A DNA stretch of 20,795 nt. It comes from a virus. The stretch lies in the IMG/VR virus record IMGVR_UViG_3300040801_005258, positions 1 to 20,795 of that record; one strand, written 5' to 3'. Under the pieces are notes generated by a model. It was not told the origin of the DNA. It was given only the letters and a program-made list of their open reading frames with translations, and did no database searches. Positions 9,874 to 20,357 of the stretch are shown here, one piece after another; position 1 is the stretch's first letter, and each line of letters opens with the position of its first letter. The translations under genes and the position numbers were made by a program.

Positions 9874-10259
9874 TGGAGCTGCTGAAGTCGATCGAGATCG
9901 TCCTGGGGCTGATCTTCGCCGGGGGCGGCGCGATCCTCACCGGCGCCGTCTGGCTGGACCGGCGCAGCCGCACCTACGCGGCCAGCACGCGCAAGGAAGT
10001 CCGCGGCGGGCAGACCCAGACGCACGCGCGGCTCGACCGGCTGGAGCAGCGCGTCGGCGCCATCGAGGGCGAGGTCGACGACACGCGCGAGCGGCTCGGC
10101 GGGATCGAGGCCCGGTTGGAGGGCCTGGCCACGAAGGACCAGTCGGCGCAGCTGGGCGAGCGGCTCGGCCGCGTCGAGGGCGCGCTGGTCAAGGTCGGCA
10201 CCCAGCTCGACACGCTCTATCGCGCCGCGCTGCGCGCTGGCGGGGGCGACGACGGATGA
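9873..10259 (+). CDS. DUF2730-like membrane-anchored coiled-coil protein
   Basis: A 128-aa protein, TGATG-coupled. One N-terminal transmembrane helix (SIEIVLGLIFAGGGAILTGAVWLD, about residues 6-29) is followed by a basic stretch (RRSRTYAASTRKEVR) and a long coiled coil with heptad-like repeats (HARLDRLEQRVGAIEGEVDDTRERLGGIEARLEGL, then AQLGERLGRVEGALVKVGTQLDTLYRA). The architecture and position before the gp26-like genes fit DUF2730 of Mu-like phages. Function of the family is unknown. An anchored periplasmic coiled coil is also the plan of an inner-membrane spanin, and no other spanin is seen in this cassette, so that role deserves thought, although the basic stretch after the helix would favour a cytoplasmic C-terminus. 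Confidence 0.78.
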   Translation: MELLKSIEIVLGLIFAGGGAILTGAVWLDRRSRTYAASTRKEVRGGQTQTHARLDRLEQRVGAIEGEVDDTRERLGGIEARLEGLATKDQSAQLGERLGRVEGALVKVGTQLDTLYRAALRAGGGDDG

Positions 10260-10555
10260 TGCAGGACTGGCCCGTCGCGCAGATCGAGGCCGAGAAGCGG
10301 CGCCTCGCGGTGCTGCGGTACCTGGCCGGCTGCGCCGGCTACGAGGCCGCGGCGGTCCTGGTGCTGCTGCATTTGCGCGACCGCGGCATCCCGACGTCGT
10401 CCGACCAGCTGAACGCCACGCTGGCCTGGCTGGCCGAGGCGGGCCTCGCGACGCTGCGCGACGCCGAGGGCCAGGTCGCCCGCGTCACGCCGCGCGGACG
10501 GGAGGTCGGGCTCGGCCTCGCCCGCCAGCCCGGCGTCCTGCCCCCCGATCCCTGA
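10256..10555 (+). CDS. Mu gp26-like winged-helix protein, copy 1
   Basis: A 99-aa protein with an ATGA-coupled start (a second ATG follows at 10259). RRLAVLRYLAGCAGYEAAAVLVLLHLRDRGIPTSSDQLNATLAWLAEAGLATLRDAEGQVARVTPRGREVGLG is a small winged helix ending in the usual wing and T-x-x-G-R-E-V pattern. Similar proteins in Mu-like phages sit between DUF2730 and the terminase small subunit and are often labelled ArsR-like. The next gene encodes a paralogue. DNA binding at packaging or regulation is inferred from fold and place only. Confidence 0.78.
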   Translation: MMQDWPVAQIEAEKRRLAVLRYLAGCAGYEAAAVLVLLHLRDRGIPTSSDQLNATLAWLAEAGLATLRDAEGQVARVTPRGREVGLGLARQPGVLPPDP

Positions 10556-10566
10556 AAGGAACCCCG

Positions 10567-10860
10567 ATGGACCACACCACCGCCACCGAGCATCGCCGCC
10601 TGGCGATCCTCCGCCACCTCGATGCGCTGCCGCAGTTCAGCTCGAACGCGTCGATCATCCGCGACGTGCTGGCGGGCGTCGGCGTGCCGTCCTCCGAGGA
10701 CCAGCTGCGCCAGGCGTTGGCCTGGCTAGAGGAGATGGGGCTGGTGCGGCTGCGGCACGCCGAGGAGGTGACGATCGCCGAGATCACCGGGCGCGGCTCG
10801 GAGGTCGCGCGCGGCGAGGCCCTGGCGCCTGGCGTGGCGGGCCCGCGGCCGCGGGGCTGA
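10567..10860 (+). CDS. Mu gp26-like winged-helix protein, copy 2
   Basis: A 97-aa protein, 11 bases after copy 1, with its own ribosome binding site (GAAAGGA, 10555-10561). It shares with copy 1 the start EHRRLAILRHL against EKRRLAVLRYL, then G(I/V)P(T/S)S-x-DQL-x-x-(T/A)LAWL-x-E-x-GL-x-x-LR-x-AE, and the tail (T)-x-RG-x-EV...PGV. The first helices differ (QFSSNASIIRDVLAGVG against YEAAAVLVLLHLRDRG). Because of the spacing and the separate ribosome binding site it is probably translated independently of copy 1. Function as for copy 1, unproven. Confidence 0.75.
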   Translation: MDHTTATEHRRLAILRHLDALPQFSSNASIIRDVLAGVGVPSSEDQLRQALAWLEEMGLVRLRHAEEVTIAEITGRGSEVARGEALAPGVAGPRPRG

Positions 10861-10864
10861 CGGC

Positions 10865-11113
10865 GTGCCGCCGCCGCGCAAGGTCGACCTGCTGCCGCCC
10901 GAGCTGCGCGGCTGGCTCCAGGAGGAGCTGCGCGCGCGCGGGTTCGGCGGGTACGAGGAGTTGGCCGAGGCGCTGAACTTCCGGCTGGAGGAGGAGGGGG
11001 TCGAGCTGCGCATCGGCAAGTCGGCGCTGCACGCCTACGGCTCGGAGTTCCGCGAATACGCGCAGATGCAGGAGCGGCGCAGGACGAGATCAAGGCCTTC
11101 CTCACCGAAATGA
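10865..11113 (+). CDS. Terminase small subunit (DUF3486, gp27-like), N-terminal part
   Basis: An 82-aa product starting at GTG 10865, four bases after the previous stop. KVDLLPPELRGWLQEELRARGFGGYEELAEALNFRLEEEGVELRIGKSALHAYGSEF is the DNA-binding N-terminal part of DUF3486 terminase small subunits (LPPE, an HTH, then S-x-S-AL-H-x-Y-G). After QMQER the frame runs into an unlikely basic tail (RRTRSRPSSPK) and stops. The -1 frame from the same place reads AQDEIKAFLTEMTAGQEVD, which continues naturally into the next gene. So this is half of a gene that normally encodes about 180 aa. Either a base is missing near 11076 (run GCGGCGC), or the protein is really made in two pieces or by frameshifting. 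Confidence 0.8.
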   Translation: MPPPRKVDLLPPELRGWLQEELRARGFGGYEELAEALNFRLEEEGVELRIGKSALHAYGSEFREYAQMQERRRTRSRPSSPK

Positions 11114-11403
11114 CGGCGGGCCAGGAGGTCGACGTGACGAGCGCGCTGTTCCAGCAGCTATCGGCGATCGCGTTCCGAACGCAGATGGCGATCGCGAAGT
11201 CCGAGACGGGGATCGTCGACCCGAAGGGGCTGAAGGACCTGACGACGGCGCTGAACAACCTGATCCGCTCGACCGACCTGCGCGAGCGCATCGCGGCCGA
11301 GGAGCGGCGCCAGGCGGTCGACAAGCTGGACGGGGCCGTGGCCAAGGGCGCGATCGACGCGGCCGCGGCGGCGCGGGCCCGCGAGATCATGGGGTTCGCG
11401 TGA
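11110..11403 (+). CDS. Terminase small subunit (DUF3486, gp27-like), C-terminal part
   Basis: A 97-aa product beginning at ATG 11110, which overlaps the stop of the first part by ATGA. VTSALFQQLSAIAFRTQMAIAKSETGIVDPKGLKDLTTALNNLIRSTDLRERIAAEERRQAVDKLD and the ending AARAREIMGFA match the C-terminal helical region of DUF3486, including the final (I/A)REI-x-G. In Mu-like phages this part is joined to the N-terminal HTH part. The frame extends upstream in line with a -1 shift from the first part. The small subunit recognises phage ends for packaging with the large subunit encoded downstream. Whether this piece alone is translated is uncertain, but the coupled start makes it possible. Confidence 0.75.
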   Translation: MTAGQEVDVTSALFQQLSAIAFRTQMAIAKSETGIVDPKGLKDLTTALNNLIRSTDLRERIAAEERRQAVDKLDGAVAKGAIDAAAAARAREIMGFA

Positions 11404-11738
11404 TGGTCTCTAACCTTGAGATCGCCCACTGGCTTGATCGTTGGGCGGGCAGCGCGGAGGGCGTCATCCCCGAGGCCATGATCCTCGACCTTCGGCGTGC
11501 GGCGGTTAGGCTCCGCGAGGATGCGTCCCGCGCCAACCTGAAGGCCTGGCTGGTCGAGCACGGACCTACGGATCGCCCCGTTTACCTGAGAATGCGTTGC
11601 CCCGGCCCCGGCTGGACGAAGGACCCGACGAAAGCCGTTTGCTTTGCCCGGCAGCAGGACGGCCAGGAGGCCCTCGATCATTACGGACCGGATTACGGGC
11701 GGGTCGTCGAGTACACCTTCCCGATCGATCCGAGCTGA
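11403..11738 (+). CDS. Unknown gene inserted between terminase subunits, lower GC
   Basis: A 111-aa protein; ATG 11403 overlaps the previous stop (TGATG), with a GTG three bases earlier as alternative. NLEIAHWLDRWAGSAEGVIPEAMILDLRRAAVRLRED is helical; KAWLVEHGPTDRPVYLRMRCPGPGWTKDPTKAVCFARQQDGQEAL looks like a small alpha-beta fold, with W-T-K-D-x-x-K-A-V-x-FAR-x-x-D recalling hypothetical phage proteins of Enterobacteria. A hand count gives about 65 percent GC against about 73 percent in a nearby terminase stretch, and it uses AGA, AGG, GTT, CTT, TTT and TCT codons that neighbours avoid. Mu has no gene at this place. Probably a later insertion (moron-like). Function unknown. Confidence 0.7.
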   Translation: MVSNLEIAHWLDRWAGSAEGVIPEAMILDLRRAAVRLREDASRANLKAWLVEHGPTDRPVYLRMRCPGPGWTKDPTKAVCFARQQDGQEALDHYGPDYGRVVEYTFPIDPS

Positions 11739-11742
11739 TCCG

Positions 11743-13113
11743 ATGACCGCCCCCGTCATCACCTGGCTGCCCTACCAGCAGGCCTGGCTGGCCGACCAGT
11801 CGCGCTTCAAGATCGGGATGTTCACGCGCCGGGGCGGCAAGACCTTCGGCGCGGGCGGCGAGATCGTCGACCAGGTGGTGCAGGCCGAGCTGGCCGGCCG
11901 GCGCGAGCGCTGGACGATCCTGTCGCGCTCGGAGCGGACGGCGAAGGAGGCGATGAACGACGCGATCAAGCCCATCACCCAGGGCTTCTTCGCGGCCTAC
12001 GGCGAGGTGCTGCGCGGGCGCGAGCCCGAGTACGGCACCGACACCTTCCGCACGGCCGAGGCCACCACCACCACCCACGAGGTGCACTTCCCCGGCGGGT
12101 CCCGCGTCGTCGCCCTGTCGGCCTCGCCCGACGCGGCCCGCGGCTTCGGCGGGAACCTCCTGCTCGACGAGTTCGCGTTCCACCGCGACAGCCGCGCGAT
12201 CTGGGGCGCGGCCTTCCCGGTCGCCGCGCGCGGCGGGCACAAGATCAGGGTGATCTCGACGCCCAACGGCAAGGGCAACAAGTTCTACGAGCTGTGGACC
12301 GACGAGACCGGGACCTGGTCGAAGCACCGCGCCGACATCCACGAGGCCGTCGCCCAGGGCCTCGACGTCGACATCGAGGAGCTGCGGGCCGCGCTGGGCG
12401 ACGAGGACGCCTGGGCGCAGGAGTTCGAGCTGAAATGGCTCGACGCCGCGTCGGCCTGGCTCGACTACGACCTGATCGCCTCCTGCGAGGACGTCCGCGC
12501 CGGCCGGCCCGAGCAGTACCAGGGCGGCCCGTGCTTCGTGGGCGTCGACATCGCGGTGCGCCGCGACCTGTTCGTCGTCTGGGTCGCCGAGGACGTGGAC
12601 GGCCGCCTGGTCACGCGCGAGGTCTTCGCGCGCGCCGGCATCCCCTTCGCCGAGCAGCAGCTGGTGACGGACCGCATCTTCGAGCGGTACCGCGTCGTCC
12701 GCGCCGCCTACGACCAGACGGGGATCGGCGAGGCCCCGACCGAGGCCGCGATCCGCCGCTACGGGTCGAGCCGCGTCGAGGGCGTGCAGTTCTCCTCGGC
12801 GCGCAAGCTCGACATGGCCACCGCGCTGAAGGAGCGGATGCAGGACCGCACGCTCCTGATCCCGGCCGGCGACACGAAGCTGCGCGCCGACCTCCACGCG
12901 ATCCGGTCCGTCGTCGGGCCGACCGGCCTGCGCCGCCTGGTGGCCGACGGCGACACGGACGGGCACGCCGACCGCTTCTGGGCCGCGGCGCTCTCCTGCT
13001 CGGCGGCCGTGACCGAATACCAGCCGCTCGACTACCAGCCCGTCCGCCGCGACCGCGGCGAGCGCGACATGCCGATCACCGCGGGCTTCCGCGCGCACCG
13101 GGGAGTGATGTGA
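11743..13113 (+). CDS. Terminase large subunit (Mu gp28-like)
   Basis: A 456-aa packaging motor: an N-terminal ATPase drives DNA into the prohead and a C-terminal RNase H-like nuclease cuts it. Walker A-like FTRRGGKTFG (K33-T34) and Walker B NLLLDEFAFH (D142, E143) are clear, followed by ISTPNGKGNKFYE, the coupling motif region. In the nuclease domain FVGVDIAVRRD (D269), AAYDQTGIGE (D324) and DGHADRFWAAAL (D410) supply the acidic residues. Length is slightly shorter than Mu gp28 (about 550 aa). ATG 11743 is four bases after the preceding gene; the longer open frame upstream overlaps that gene and is unlikely. Packaging is probably headful, as in Mu. Confidence 0.94.
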   Translation: MTAPVITWLPYQQAWLADQSRFKIGMFTRRGGKTFGAGGEIVDQVVQAELAGRRERWTILSRSERTAKEAMNDAIKPITQGFFAAYGEVLRGREPEYGTDTFRTAEATTTTHEVHFPGGSRVVALSASPDAARGFGGNLLLDEFAFHRDSRAIWGAAFPVAARGGHKIRVISTPNGKGNKFYELWTDETGTWSKHRADIHEAVAQGLDVDIEELRAALGDEDAWAQEFELKWLDAASAWLDYDLIASCEDVRAGRPEQYQGGPCFVGVDIAVRRDLFVVWVAEDVDGRLVTREVFARAGIPFAEQQLVTDRIFERYRVVRAAYDQTGIGEAPTEAAIRRYGSSRVEGVQFSSARKLDMATALKERMQDRTLLIPAGDTKLRADLHAIRSVVGPTGLRRLVADGDTDGHADRFWAAALSCSAAVTEYQPLDYQPVRRDRGERDMPITAGFRAHRGVM

Positions 13114-14669
13114 TGCGACCGACCGACCGCTTGAAGGACTGGCTGGGCCGCGTGGTGCGCGGCCGCACCTTGGAGGCGCCGCAGGCCACGCCCAGCCTCA
13201 CGGGCGTCCGCCAGCCCTATGCCGACAGCGTCGCGACGGGGCTCACGCCCGTGCGCCTGGCGCAGATCCTCGCGGCCGCCGACCAGGGCGACATCCTGGA
13301 CTTCATGACGCTCGCCCAGGAGATGGAAGAGCGCGACCCCCACTACGCCGCCGTGCTGGGCGTGCGGAAGCGGGCCGTCTCGGGCGTGCCCGTCGCCGTG
13401 GTCGCCGCCGAGGGCGCCGTCGAGGACGACCCCGTCGCCAAGGCCGTGACGCGGGACCTGGTCGAGAGCGGCCTGTTGCCTGACCTGGTCGAGGATCTGA
13501 TGGACGGGCTGGGCAAGGGCGTCTCCGTCGTCGAGATCGACTGGCACCGCGGGCCCGACCGCTGGCGTCCGCGCGGCTTCGAATGGGTCGACGCGCGCTT
13601 CCTGCAGCTCGACAGGGAGACGGGCCGCGAGGTGCGGCTGCGCGACGAGGCCGACCTGCAGGCCGGCGTCGCGCTGGAGCCCTTCCGGTTCCTGGTCCAC
13701 CGCCCGGCGCTCAAGGCGGGGCTCGCGGTGCGCGGCGGGCTCGCCCGGCTGGTCGCGTTCATGTGGCTGCTCAAGAAGTACGACGAGAAGGACTGGCTGG
13801 CGTGCATCGAGCTGTTCGGGATGCCCTTGCGCCTGGGCAAGTACGGCAGGGAGGCCACGGCCGAGGACATCGCCGCGCTGCGCCGGGCCGTCGCCTCGAT
13901 CGGGACCGACGCCGCCGCGATCGTGCCCGAGGCGATGGCGATCGAATTCGTCGAGGCGATGAAGGGATCGGGCGAGCCGCCCTACGAGGCCTTCGCGCGC
14001 TACGCCGACGAGCAGGTCTCCAAGGCCGTGCTCGGCCAGACGATGACCTCCGACAACGGGTCGAGCCAGAGCCAGGCCGAGGTCCACGACAGCGTGCGGC
14101 ACGACATCGCCGCCGCCGACGCGCGCGCGATCTCGGCGACGCTCAACCGCGATCTGGTGCGCCCCTATGTCGACCTGAACTTCGGCCCGCAGGCCGCCTA
14201 TCCCCGGCTCGTGATCGAGGTCGCCGAGCCCGAGGACGTCGACATGCAGCTGACCAACGCCGCGCGGCTCATCGCGGTGGGCGTGCCGTTCAAGGCATCC
14301 GAGCTGCGCCGCAAGGCGGGGTTCACCGACCCGCGGGAAGGCGATGAGGTCGTTGGCGCGGCGTCCGCCCCCGCTCCGCCCTCGGGGCCGGCGCGGGTCG
14401 AGGCCAACAGCTTGGCCCGCGACGATCCCGGTCCCTGGGCCCTGCTGGGGCCGCTGGAGGCGGAGGTCGCCGCCGGCTGGCGCGAGGCGTTCGAGGACAT
14501 GCTCGCGCCAATCGAGGAGCGGCTGGAGGCGGCGCGGAGCCCGGAGGACGCGCTCCGGCTCGTGCGGGAGCTCGAGCTGCCCGGCGCGCCGCTGGCGCTG
14601 ACCGAGCAGCTCGCCCGCGCGGCGGTGATGGCACGCGGCATCGGCGAGGGGTGGACCGAGGATGGCTGA
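13113..14669 (+). CDS. Portal protein, DUF935 family (Mu gp29-like)
   Basis: A 518-aa protein that forms the ring at the head vertex through which DNA is packaged and ejected. LTPVRLAQILAAADQGDILDFMTLAQEMEERDPHYAAVLGVRKRAVSG is the hallmark N-terminal block of DUF935, followed by GKGVSVVEIDWHR, PRGFEWVDARFLQLD, WLLKKYDEKDWLACIELFGMPLRLGKY and the core VLGQTMTSDNGSSQSQAEVHDSVRHDI. The region from about residue 415 on is Ala/Pro-rich then helical. It starts at TGATG overlap with the terminase stop. Length agrees with the family (about 500 aa). Confidence 0.94.
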   Translation: MRPTDRLKDWLGRVVRGRTLEAPQATPSLTGVRQPYADSVATGLTPVRLAQILAAADQGDILDFMTLAQEMEERDPHYAAVLGVRKRAVSGVPVAVVAAEGAVEDDPVAKAVTRDLVESGLLPDLVEDLMDGLGKGVSVVEIDWHRGPDRWRPRGFEWVDARFLQLDRETGREVRLRDEADLQAGVALEPFRFLVHRPALKAGLAVRGGLARLVAFMWLLKKYDEKDWLACIELFGMPLRLGKYGREATAEDIAALRRAVASIGTDAAAIVPEAMAIEFVEAMKGSGEPPYEAFARYADEQVSKAVLGQTMTSDNGSSQSQAEVHDSVRHDIAAADARAISATLNRDLVRPYVDLNFGPQAAYPRLVIEVAEPEDVDMQLTNAARLIAVGVPFKASELRRKAGFTDPREGDEVVGAASAPAPPSGPARVEANSLARDDPGPWALLGPLEAEVAAGWREAFEDMLAPIEERLEAARSPEDALRLVRELELPGAPLALTEQLARAAVMARGIGEGWTEDG

Positions 14670-14796
14670 TTTGCGCGACATCCAGGCGGCTCTGGAGTGG
14701 TACCTGCGGCGCGACCGCGAGGGGGTGGGTCGCAAGCAGCTTCGGTACTGGGAGCGCGAACTCGGCCGCCGCATCAAGGCGCACTTCGATGGCTGA
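14662..14796 (+). CDS. 44-residue basic phage protein between portal and gpF-like genes
   Basis: The frame ATG 14662 to TGA 14796 encodes MADLRDIQAALEWYLRRDRE...QLRYWERELGRRIKAHFDG, 44 aa. It overlaps the portal stop by 8 bases and the next gene's ATG (14789) by 8 bases, and has a ribosome binding site GAGGGG (14646-14651) or GAGG (14658 region) before it. It fills exactly the gap that would otherwise be left between two coupled head genes, which is the main support. It is predicted to be one or two amphipathic helices, with aromatic W/Y and many R/K. No known homologue comes to mind. Its in-line overlap with both neighbours argues that it is real. Confidence 0.6.
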   Translation: MADLRDIQAALEWYLRRDREGVGRKQLRYWERELGRRIKAHFDG

Positions 14797-15598
14797 GCGC
14801 GCCGACGAGGACCGCCCCGGCTTCCGCTTCGACCCCGGCGCGCCCGAGGAGGTCTCTGCCTTCTTCCGCGACAAGGGCCTGCGAGAGACCGATCGGTGGG
14901 ACGAATGGCTGCCCGAGGAGCATGCCGTCTCGTTCACGGTGGCGCGCTCGCTCGAGCAGGACGTGCTGGGCGACATCGCCGAGGAGCTGCAGTCGGCCAT
15001 CGACGAGGGCCGCGGCATCGATGAGTTCGTGCGCAGCCTGCGCCCGCGGCTGGAGGCCAAGGGCTGGTGGGGCAGGACCGAGGGCGACGGGGGCGACCGG
15101 GAGGTCGAGCTGGGCACGCCTCGGCGGCTGCGCACGATCTACCGCGCCAACGTCCGCTCGGCCTACGCAGCCGGCCAGTGGGGCCGCATCGAGCGGACCA
15201 AGTCCGTGCTGCCCTTCCTAGAGTACCGGCTCGGGCCCAGCCTGGTCCACCGGCCCGACCACCTCGCCAAGGAGGGGCTGGTCCTGCGCGCCGACGACCC
15301 GTTCTGGCGCCGCTGGATGCCGCCCAACGGCTGGGGCTGCAAATGCTGGGTGCGGCAGCTTTCGCGGCGGGCCGCCGAGGCGCTGGGCATCGACCTCGCG
15401 CCCGAGGTGCAGATGACGACCTACACCGACAGCCAGGGCCGGGATCGCCAGGTTCCTCGCGGCATCGACCCCGGCTGGGACGGCAACCCCGGAGCCGCGC
15501 GCCTAGCCGCGCGCAGGGAGGAGCTGGCCGCCAAGGAAGCCCGGCGGCGGGGCCAAGCGCCCTCGGGGGGCCACGGGCCAGACGAGCCCGTCCGTTAA
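14789..15598 (+). CDS. Head morphogenesis protein, Mu F-like (gp30 / SPP1 gp7 family)
   Basis: A 269-aa minor head protein, probably placed inside the prohead near the portal. ATG 14789 overlaps the 44-residue gene. The N-terminal block PEEVSAFFRDKGLRETDRWDEWLPEEHAVSFTVAR is typical of Mu gpF relatives; TPRRLRTIYRANVRSAYAAGQWGRI then the signature DPFWRRWMPPNGWGCKCWVRQLS (about residues 171-193, with the CKC pair) identify the Phage_Mu_F family. It is shorter than Mu gpF (about 425 aa), as in other alphaproteobacterial Mu-like phages that I recall. The TAA stop lies in a GTTAAAC sequence at the edge of the non-coding gap. Confidence 0.9.
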   Translation: MAERADEDRPGFRFDPGAPEEVSAFFRDKGLRETDRWDEWLPEEHAVSFTVARSLEQDVLGDIAEELQSAIDEGRGIDEFVRSLRPRLEAKGWWGRTEGDGGDREVELGTPRRLRTIYRANVRSAYAAGQWGRIERTKSVLPFLEYRLGPSLVHRPDHLAKEGLVLRADDPFWRRWMPPNGWGCKCWVRQLSRRAAEALGIDLAPEVQMTTYTDSQGRDRQVPRGIDPGWDGNPGAARLAARREELAAKEARRRGQAPSGGHGPDEPVR

Positions 15599-19073: not shown

Positions 19074-19600
19074 CCGCCGAAGCCCCCGCCGTCCTCCGCG
19101 ACCTCGTCGAGGGCGTGGTCGCGGAGATCTCCACGCTGCTGCCCGGGCTGCGCGCCTGCGACGGGATGGTCGGGCCCTTCGACGCCTCGGAGCTGCGACG
19201 GGGCGGCACGCGCCTGCCGGCGGTACGGGTCTCGCTGCTGGGCCTCAAGACCCGGGAGACCCGCGCAGGCTGGGCCACGATCCACGACGCGTCGATGGCA
19301 GCCTACGTCGTGACCGGCCCGCGCCATGGCGCCGACCGCGACCTCGACGCGCTGACGATCGCCGAAGCGCTGCTCGGCCAGGTCCCGGGCGCGACCTGGG
19401 GCCTGAGCGCCGCGGTGATGGAGGCCGAAGGCTGCGTGCTGCGCCCTCTCGTGACCACCGCCGTTCGCGACGCGGCCGCCTCGCTGATGGGCGTGATGTG
19501 GACGCAGCCGGTGGCGCTGCGCTCGTTGGCCCCCGGCGCGACCTTTCCGGCCACGCTCTTCGTGAACGGCGAGCAGGTCACGCCGGAGGTGAACGCATGA
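19070..19600 (+). CDS. gp37-like (DUF1834-type) neck or tail protein
   Basis: A 176-aa protein with ATGA-coupled start. The layout LRDLVEGVVAEISTLLPGLRACDGMVGPFDASELRR, then LPAVRVSLLGLK, a central MAAYVVTGPRHGADRDLDALTIAEALLGQVPGATW and the end AASLMGVMWTQPVALRSL fits the gp37/DUF1834 pattern in order (helix, beta, helix, then a W-x-Q strand near the C-terminus). The gene is in the usual place after gp36. I have less certainty than for the neighbours because no single motif is unique. Confidence 0.7.
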   Translation: MTAEAPAVLRDLVEGVVAEISTLLPGLRACDGMVGPFDASELRRGGTRLPAVRVSLLGLKTRETRAGWATIHDASMAAYVVTGPRHGADRDLDALTIAEALLGQVPGATWGLSAAVMEAEGCVLRPLVTTAVRDAAASLMGVMWTQPVALRSLAPGATFPATLFVNGEQVTPEVNA

Positions 19601-20025
19601 GCTTCCAGGCCGCCGAGCAGGACCGTCAGCTGCAGCAGGTCGTCGAGATCGGCACCGTCACGGCCGTCGAGGGCGACCGCCTGCGCGCGGACCTGGCCGG
19701 CGCGCCCTCGCCGCCCCTGCCGGTGATGCGCATCGCCATGGGCGGGCTGCGCGTGCGGGCGCGGATCGAGGCGGGCGAGCAGGTCGTCGTCGTCGCCCCC
19801 GGTGGCGACATGGCCCGCGCCTTCGTGCTGGGCACTCTGCCCCAGGGCAACGACCTGCCTGGCGCCGAGGCGCTGGAGATCGACCTGGGCGGCGGGACGC
19901 TCATGGTCACCGGCGGGTCCATCGCCGTGCCCGACGGCGACGTCACCGCCTCCGGCATAAGCCTGACCACCCACGTCCATGGCGGTGTCTCGGTGGGCCT
20001 GGCCGACACGGACGGTCCCCAATGA
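19597..20025 (+). CDS. Baseplate assembly protein V, central spike
   Basis: A 142-aa protein, ATGA-coupled, that forms the trimeric spike under the baseplate which pierces the cell surface. VVEIGTVTAVEGDRLRADLAG and GEQVVVVAPGGDMARAFVLGTLPQ form the OB-fold typical of P2 gpV and Mu gp45. The C-terminal part is beta-repeat rich (LEIDLGGGTLMVTGGSIAVPDGDVTASGISL) and ends in THVHGGV, whose HxH motif binds the iron ion at the tip of P2-type spikes. Shorter than P2 gpV (211 aa), so the beta-helix is short. Contractile tail is implied. Confidence 0.9.
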   Translation: MSFQAAEQDRQLQQVVEIGTVTAVEGDRLRADLAGAPSPPLPVMRIAMGGLRVRARIEAGEQVVVVAPGGDMARAFVLGTLPQGNDLPGAEALEIDLGGGTLMVTGGSIAVPDGDVTASGISLTTHVHGGVSVGLADTDGPQ

Positions 20026-20357
20026 GCGGGCTGGACCGGACCACGGGCGACGTGATCGACGGCATCGACCTGCTGCGACAGCAGATCGAGGACGTGTTGA
20101 GCACGCCGGTCGGCACGCGCGTGCTGCGGCGCGACTACGGCTCCGAGCTGCCACGCCTCGTCGGCGCGCCCCTCAACGGTGAGACCGTCGTGGATGTCTA
20201 CGCCGCGACGGCCGAGGCGATCGACCGCTTCGTCGGCGAGTTCGCGCTGGCCCGCGTGACCATCACGGCTGCCGATCCCGGTCGTTTCATGTTCGAGATC
20301 GCGGGCGCGCACCCGGCGCTCGGCGGCGCGCCGATCACGGTCGAGGTTACGGCATGA
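20022..20357 (+). CDS. Baseplate wedge protein W (gp25-like)
   Basis: A 111-aa protein, ATGA-coupled to V. GLDRTTGDVIDGIDLLRQQIEDVLSTPVGTRVLRRDYGSELPRLVGAPLNGETVVDVYAATAEAIDRF is the unmistakable GPW/gp25 signature: a helix followed by L-(S/T)TP-x-GTRV-x-RRDYGS-x-L-x-x-L-x-x-x-P. P2 gpW and T4 gp25 are lysozyme-like wedge components joining the baseplate to the sheath. Length agrees with the family (about 115 aa). Confidence 0.94.
   Translation: MSGLDRTTGDVIDGIDLLRQQIEDVLSTPVGTRVLRRDYGSELPRLVGAPLNGETVVDVYAATAEAIDRFVGEFALARVTITAADPGRFMFEIAGAHPALGGAPITVEVTA

Follow-up and report, generated by a model that had tools for sequence, protein, structure and literature searches.

A contig-private frameshift very probably splits a Mu-like small-terminase gene (gp27) that is otherwise ordinary

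Results

The small-terminase gene of the contig lies in two reading frames

Within a 20,795-base virus record (hereafter the window; G+C 73%), a Mu-like gp27 gene for the small terminase, ordinary in other respects, is very probably split by a frameshift private to this contig, with a net loss of one base. Instead of one continuous gp27 frame of approximately 180 aa, which is not present in the window, the coding content is distributed over two frames. The initial annotation had proposed a small terminase divided by a -1 change near position 11076, with N- and C-terminal parts of a single family in different frames; Pfam, PHROGs, and tblastn homology confirmed both points and placed the crossing within 11074-11077. 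The relevant features are as follows.

10865..11113, plus strand: N-terminal ORF of gp27 (small terminase), 82 aa, GTG start, frame 2
11074..11077, plus strand: frame-change site, a short GC-rich stretch with one base fewer than close relatives
11077..11403, plus strand: gp27 C-terminal part, shifted to the -1 frame, recognized by Pfam, PHROGs, and tblastn homology
11737..13113, plus strand: TerL, the large terminase subunit, in a single open frame with matches to phrog terminase large subunit

Residues 7 to 74 of the N-terminal ORF matched positions 1 to 63 of PF11985 Phage_Mu_Gp27 (E 1.9e-14), and residues 5 to 93 of the second ORF matched positions 76 to 168 of the same profile (E 7.7e-6; 26.8 bits, slightly below the 28-bit cut-off). 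DUF3486 is an older name of this family. Likewise, both halves matched phrog_426 (terminase small subunit), the N-terminal part with an E value of 1.2e-17 and the C-terminal part with 1.1e-7, so that the two halves correspond to consecutive parts of one family. Rhodovulum phage vB_RhkS_P1 encodes gp27 as an intact 178-aa protein (YP_009285912.1), annotated as a single terminase small subunit. By tblastn, its residues 1 to 70 aligned on 10865-11074 in frame 2 and its residues 72 to 178 on 11077-11400 in frame 1, at 70% (N part) and 62% (C part) identity. Since the alignment switches frame there, the homology crosses frames within 11074-11077, where the window carries 2 nt in place of one Rhodovulum codon. 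Correspondingly, the gap between N- and C-terminal homology was 8 nt in the window, whereas it measured 9 nt in every relative locus whose alignment reaches both ends (11 loci from 10 records). The helix-turn-helix (HTH) part stays in frame to approximately 11074 and is followed by about 11 out-of-frame residues until the stop at 11111-11113. The second ORF (11110-11403, 97 aa, frame 1) has its own ATG at 11110, overlapping the first stop as ATGA, and the C-terminal homology reaches upstream of that ATG.

The split gene sits in a Mu-like gene neighborhood

Mu-like phage genes matched in the window encode a transposase, a TnpB-like protein, a late activator, an amidase, TerL, a portal, a minor head protein, and a major head protein. 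The split gp27 lies upstream of TerL, an order also found in NC_031059. The Rhodovulum gp27 follows a gp26-like gene and precedes TerL; it is a single intact ORF, whereas in the window the corresponding content is spread over two frames. TerL of the window was 60% identical to residues 1 to 440 of its Rhodovulum phage counterpart (tblastn). Between gp27 and TerL, the gene at 11400-11738 drew no Pfam or PHROGs family hit with an E value of 0.1 or lower, and no relative in the viral-contig scan, which may leave out the records nearest to the window.

Several other features of the neighborhood were observed. The adjacent ORFs at 10256-10555 and 10567-10860 are tandem paralogues sharing 40 of 88 residues (45% identity). 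Rhodovulum phage P1 has a single gp26-like gene that matches both, and its protein matches the window twice because the window contains two paralogues. Within 14662-15598, the minor head ORF encodes approximately 270 aa versus 437 aa in the Rhodovulum phage and is preceded by a small ORF (14662-14796) with no Pfam match. Baseplate-type tail genes at 19597-20357 include a weak GpV Apex motif and a GPW/gp25 baseplate wedge. The Rhodovulum phage, whose name is of the siphophage type by naming convention, resembles the window in the head-gene region but carries other tail annotations. The head and tail modules of the window may have separate origins.

gp27 is intact in nearly all relatives

To place the split within the family, 187 relative loci from scans of viral contigs, genomes, and fetched phage regions were surveyed, excluding the window's own copy (L001), by running a gp27 profile derived from 28 of the relatives on all stop-to-stop ORFs. 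The family was matched in 175 loci, and in 169 of these, unlike in the window, at least 85% of the profile lay in a single frame. These near-full-length loci comprise 142 records (by contig name, so one prophage can occur in two collections), 111 distinct gene sequences, and 100 distinct proteins, and include all 39 genome loci. Two of them are atypical at the 3' end: one gp27 leaves the contig end at 174 aa (L056), and another (L044, 3001-3735) extends to 244 aa with an unrelated tail past the usual C-terminal residues, perhaps reflecting a lesion at the very end of the gene.

Only six matching loci carried a partial gp27. Three were truncated by the end of the locus (L159, L169, and L177), and one lacked a match to the first 31 profile positions, with no second frame seen (L114). 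The remaining two, both metagenomic (L143, 1250-1821; L187, 1402-1981), had gp27 in two frames with a break near profile position 140, distant from that of the window at position ~71; the L187 split carries a 22-nt tandem duplication, whereas the L143 frame change does not. The 12 loci with no family match were L017-L021, which had entered the set through weak C-part matches, and seven TerL loci whose DNA starts 26 to 557 bases ahead of the TerL match. No split at the same site was found among the 187 loci scanned (175 with a match). Breaks in gp27 are rare, and none repeats at the window's site. A literature search at the level of titles and the beginnings of abstracts likewise returned no split Mu gp27.

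The initial annotation had named an intact gene in relatives as one outcome that would point to an error or a local mutation, and the comparison recovered such a gene in relatives of at most 86% (N) and 65% (C) identity. The closest is the gp27 of a Roseivivax halotolerans prophage (L008/L071; 86% N and 65% C identity), the sister of the window in both the N (support 0.80) and C (0.95) trees built without outgroups; it is one intact 179-aa ORF where the window is split. In the TerL scan, relatives stood at 58 to 74% identity (best 80 of at least 596). Searches with gapped DNA patterns spanning the break found no near-identical copy in viral contigs (0) or genome contigs (0), scans that may omit the records nearest to the window. 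As no near-identical contig was found, the intactness of gp27 holds for relatives rather than for the same phage.

The C-terminal part keeps nearly all invariant positions and shows a mild excess of changes

Positions invariant in the close subfamily were kept in both parts, 26 of 27 in the C part and 16 of 16 in the N part, and the C part is therefore not long-decayed. Mean identity of the window to the subfamily was 0.59 for the C part and 0.74 for the N part, compared with averages of 0.74 and 0.70, respectively, among subfamily pairs. In trees without outgroups, the window's C branch was the longest of 29 (0.38, versus 0.18 for its sister L008), while its N branch was short (0.06, rank 21, versus 0.14 for L008). 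FastTree trees with three outgroups were set aside, as two long outgroup branches joined the window in the C tree. At conserved residues, defined as those kept in at least 80% of the other sequences, the window had changed 16 of 72 in the C part, ranking first of 29 (next 13 of 71; L008 10 of 72); in the N part it ranked 18th, with 2 of 44 changed. The branch-length and residue comparisons are affected by the choice of subfamily, whose members were selected for C-part identity with the window. Counts at codon positions 1, 2, and 3 were 13/81, 17/85, and 7/27 for the window and 8/80, 11/85, and 5/25 for L008, and do not show a sign of neutral drift.

Such a C-part excess would be expected if a real break were of some age and selection had since relaxed, if the C part came from elsewhere by recombination, or if its role had changed; it weighs somewhat against a fresh sequencing error as the sole cause. 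As one rank among 29, it gives a mild lean toward real mutation and is not proof.

Alternative readings of the split

Programmed -1 ribosomal frameshifting fusing both parts, an option raised in the initial annotation, found no support and has a very slim chance of being correct. The change is in the -1 direction and both frames are open over the junction, but 10865-11113 lacked an X_XXY_YYZ heptamer in every frame, 11050-11110 contained no in-frame triple, and 11040-11120 had no homopolymer of four or more. Predicted stability of the downstream RNA (11080-11160) was barely above that of shuffled sequences (z -1.04; 28 of 200 shuffles as good; pseudoknots lie outside the model), and the shift is not conserved, intact relatives needing none. 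A broadly decaying prophage, in which gp27 would be one of many broken genes, is the most improbable reading. It would accommodate the broken gp27 and the excess of changes in its C part; however, 15 of 38 Rhodovulum phage proteins matched the window and, besides gp27, none of 14 switched frame, in a check that covers only window genes with a Rhodovulum match, several of the matches being partial. PHROG matches moreover span most of the ORF length for TnpA, TnpB, TerL, the portal, and the minor and major head proteins.

The initial annotation had also entertained a true two-subunit small terminase, in which ATGA coupling would yield an HTH protein and a C-terminal helical protein as separate products that then assemble; this option was not supported either and is very unlikely. 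The ATGA overlap is indeed present and resembles many junctions of this operon, but its value as a sign of coupling is weak. When the 111 intact relative genes are read in the +1 frame past codon 72, the first stop met is likewise ATGA in 50 of them and one of ATGA, GTGA, or TTGA in 67. Out-of-frame stops of this kind within the window's genes were ATGA in 14 of 119 cases and any of the three in 64 of 119 (32 of 33 genes, true junctions excluded). Because out-of-frame reads so often end in this manner, the overlap alone is weak evidence of coupling. At the alignment column where the second ORF has its Met, none of the 28 close-subfamily sequences carries one (27 Ala, 1 Val), a point for an evolved start, yet across the wider family 25 of 100 intact proteins do have Met there. 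Furthermore, C-part homology begins upstream of this ATG, and none of the 187 loci scanned is divided at this site.

Structure prediction also bears on a two-subunit arrangement. The AlphaFold2 model of the intact Roseivivax protein (L008; 25 sequences, mean pLDDT 77, pTM 0.53) contains a single helix at residues 52 to 82 that spans the break, so the split does not fall at a domain boundary. The pLDDT means over 10-residue blocks were 89 to 98 for residues 1 to 70 and 53 to 81 beyond and, given these lower values past residue 70, only the break-spanning helix of the model was used. No profile match to a solved structure was found for gp27 up to E 1, and Foldseek gave no match at E 0.001 or better. 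The C part keeps nearly all invariant positions yet changes more than the C parts of relatives, which counts toward a separate protein; that gp27 has become two translationally coupled proteins in this one lineage, an HTH DNA-binding subunit and a helical subunit linked by assembly alone, with faster C-part change reflecting a new role, is similarly very doubtful.

Discussion

The private one-base frameshift in gp27 is thus by far the most probable explanation. Since the one-base change was not found at that place in the relatives examined, a local mutation or a sequencing slip is most likely, and the assembly error and the damaged gene offered by the initial annotation both fit the data. Between these two, a real mutation is only modestly favored over sequencing or assembly error, given the lack of a homopolymer at the site and the mild C-part excess. 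The latter effect, being mild, moved only this balance, from marginally to modestly in favor of mutation.

If the change lies in the DNA, ribosomes would make an 82-aa HTH fragment ending at the TGA at 11111-11113, and some may restart at the overlapping ATG to give a 97-aa C-terminal product; recognition of the DNA to be packaged would then be impaired in this phage. Were the change instead an error of sequencing or assembly, the true gene would be whole.

Neither programmed frameshifting nor a two-subunit terminase finds good support in the split gp27. NTGA-type overlaps are common in these GC-rich phage genes and call for caution when coupling is read from an overlap alone. The gene itself is ordinary, and its split matters little beyond annotation, where the two ORFs are to be recorded as one frameshifted gp27 gene and not as two new proteins.
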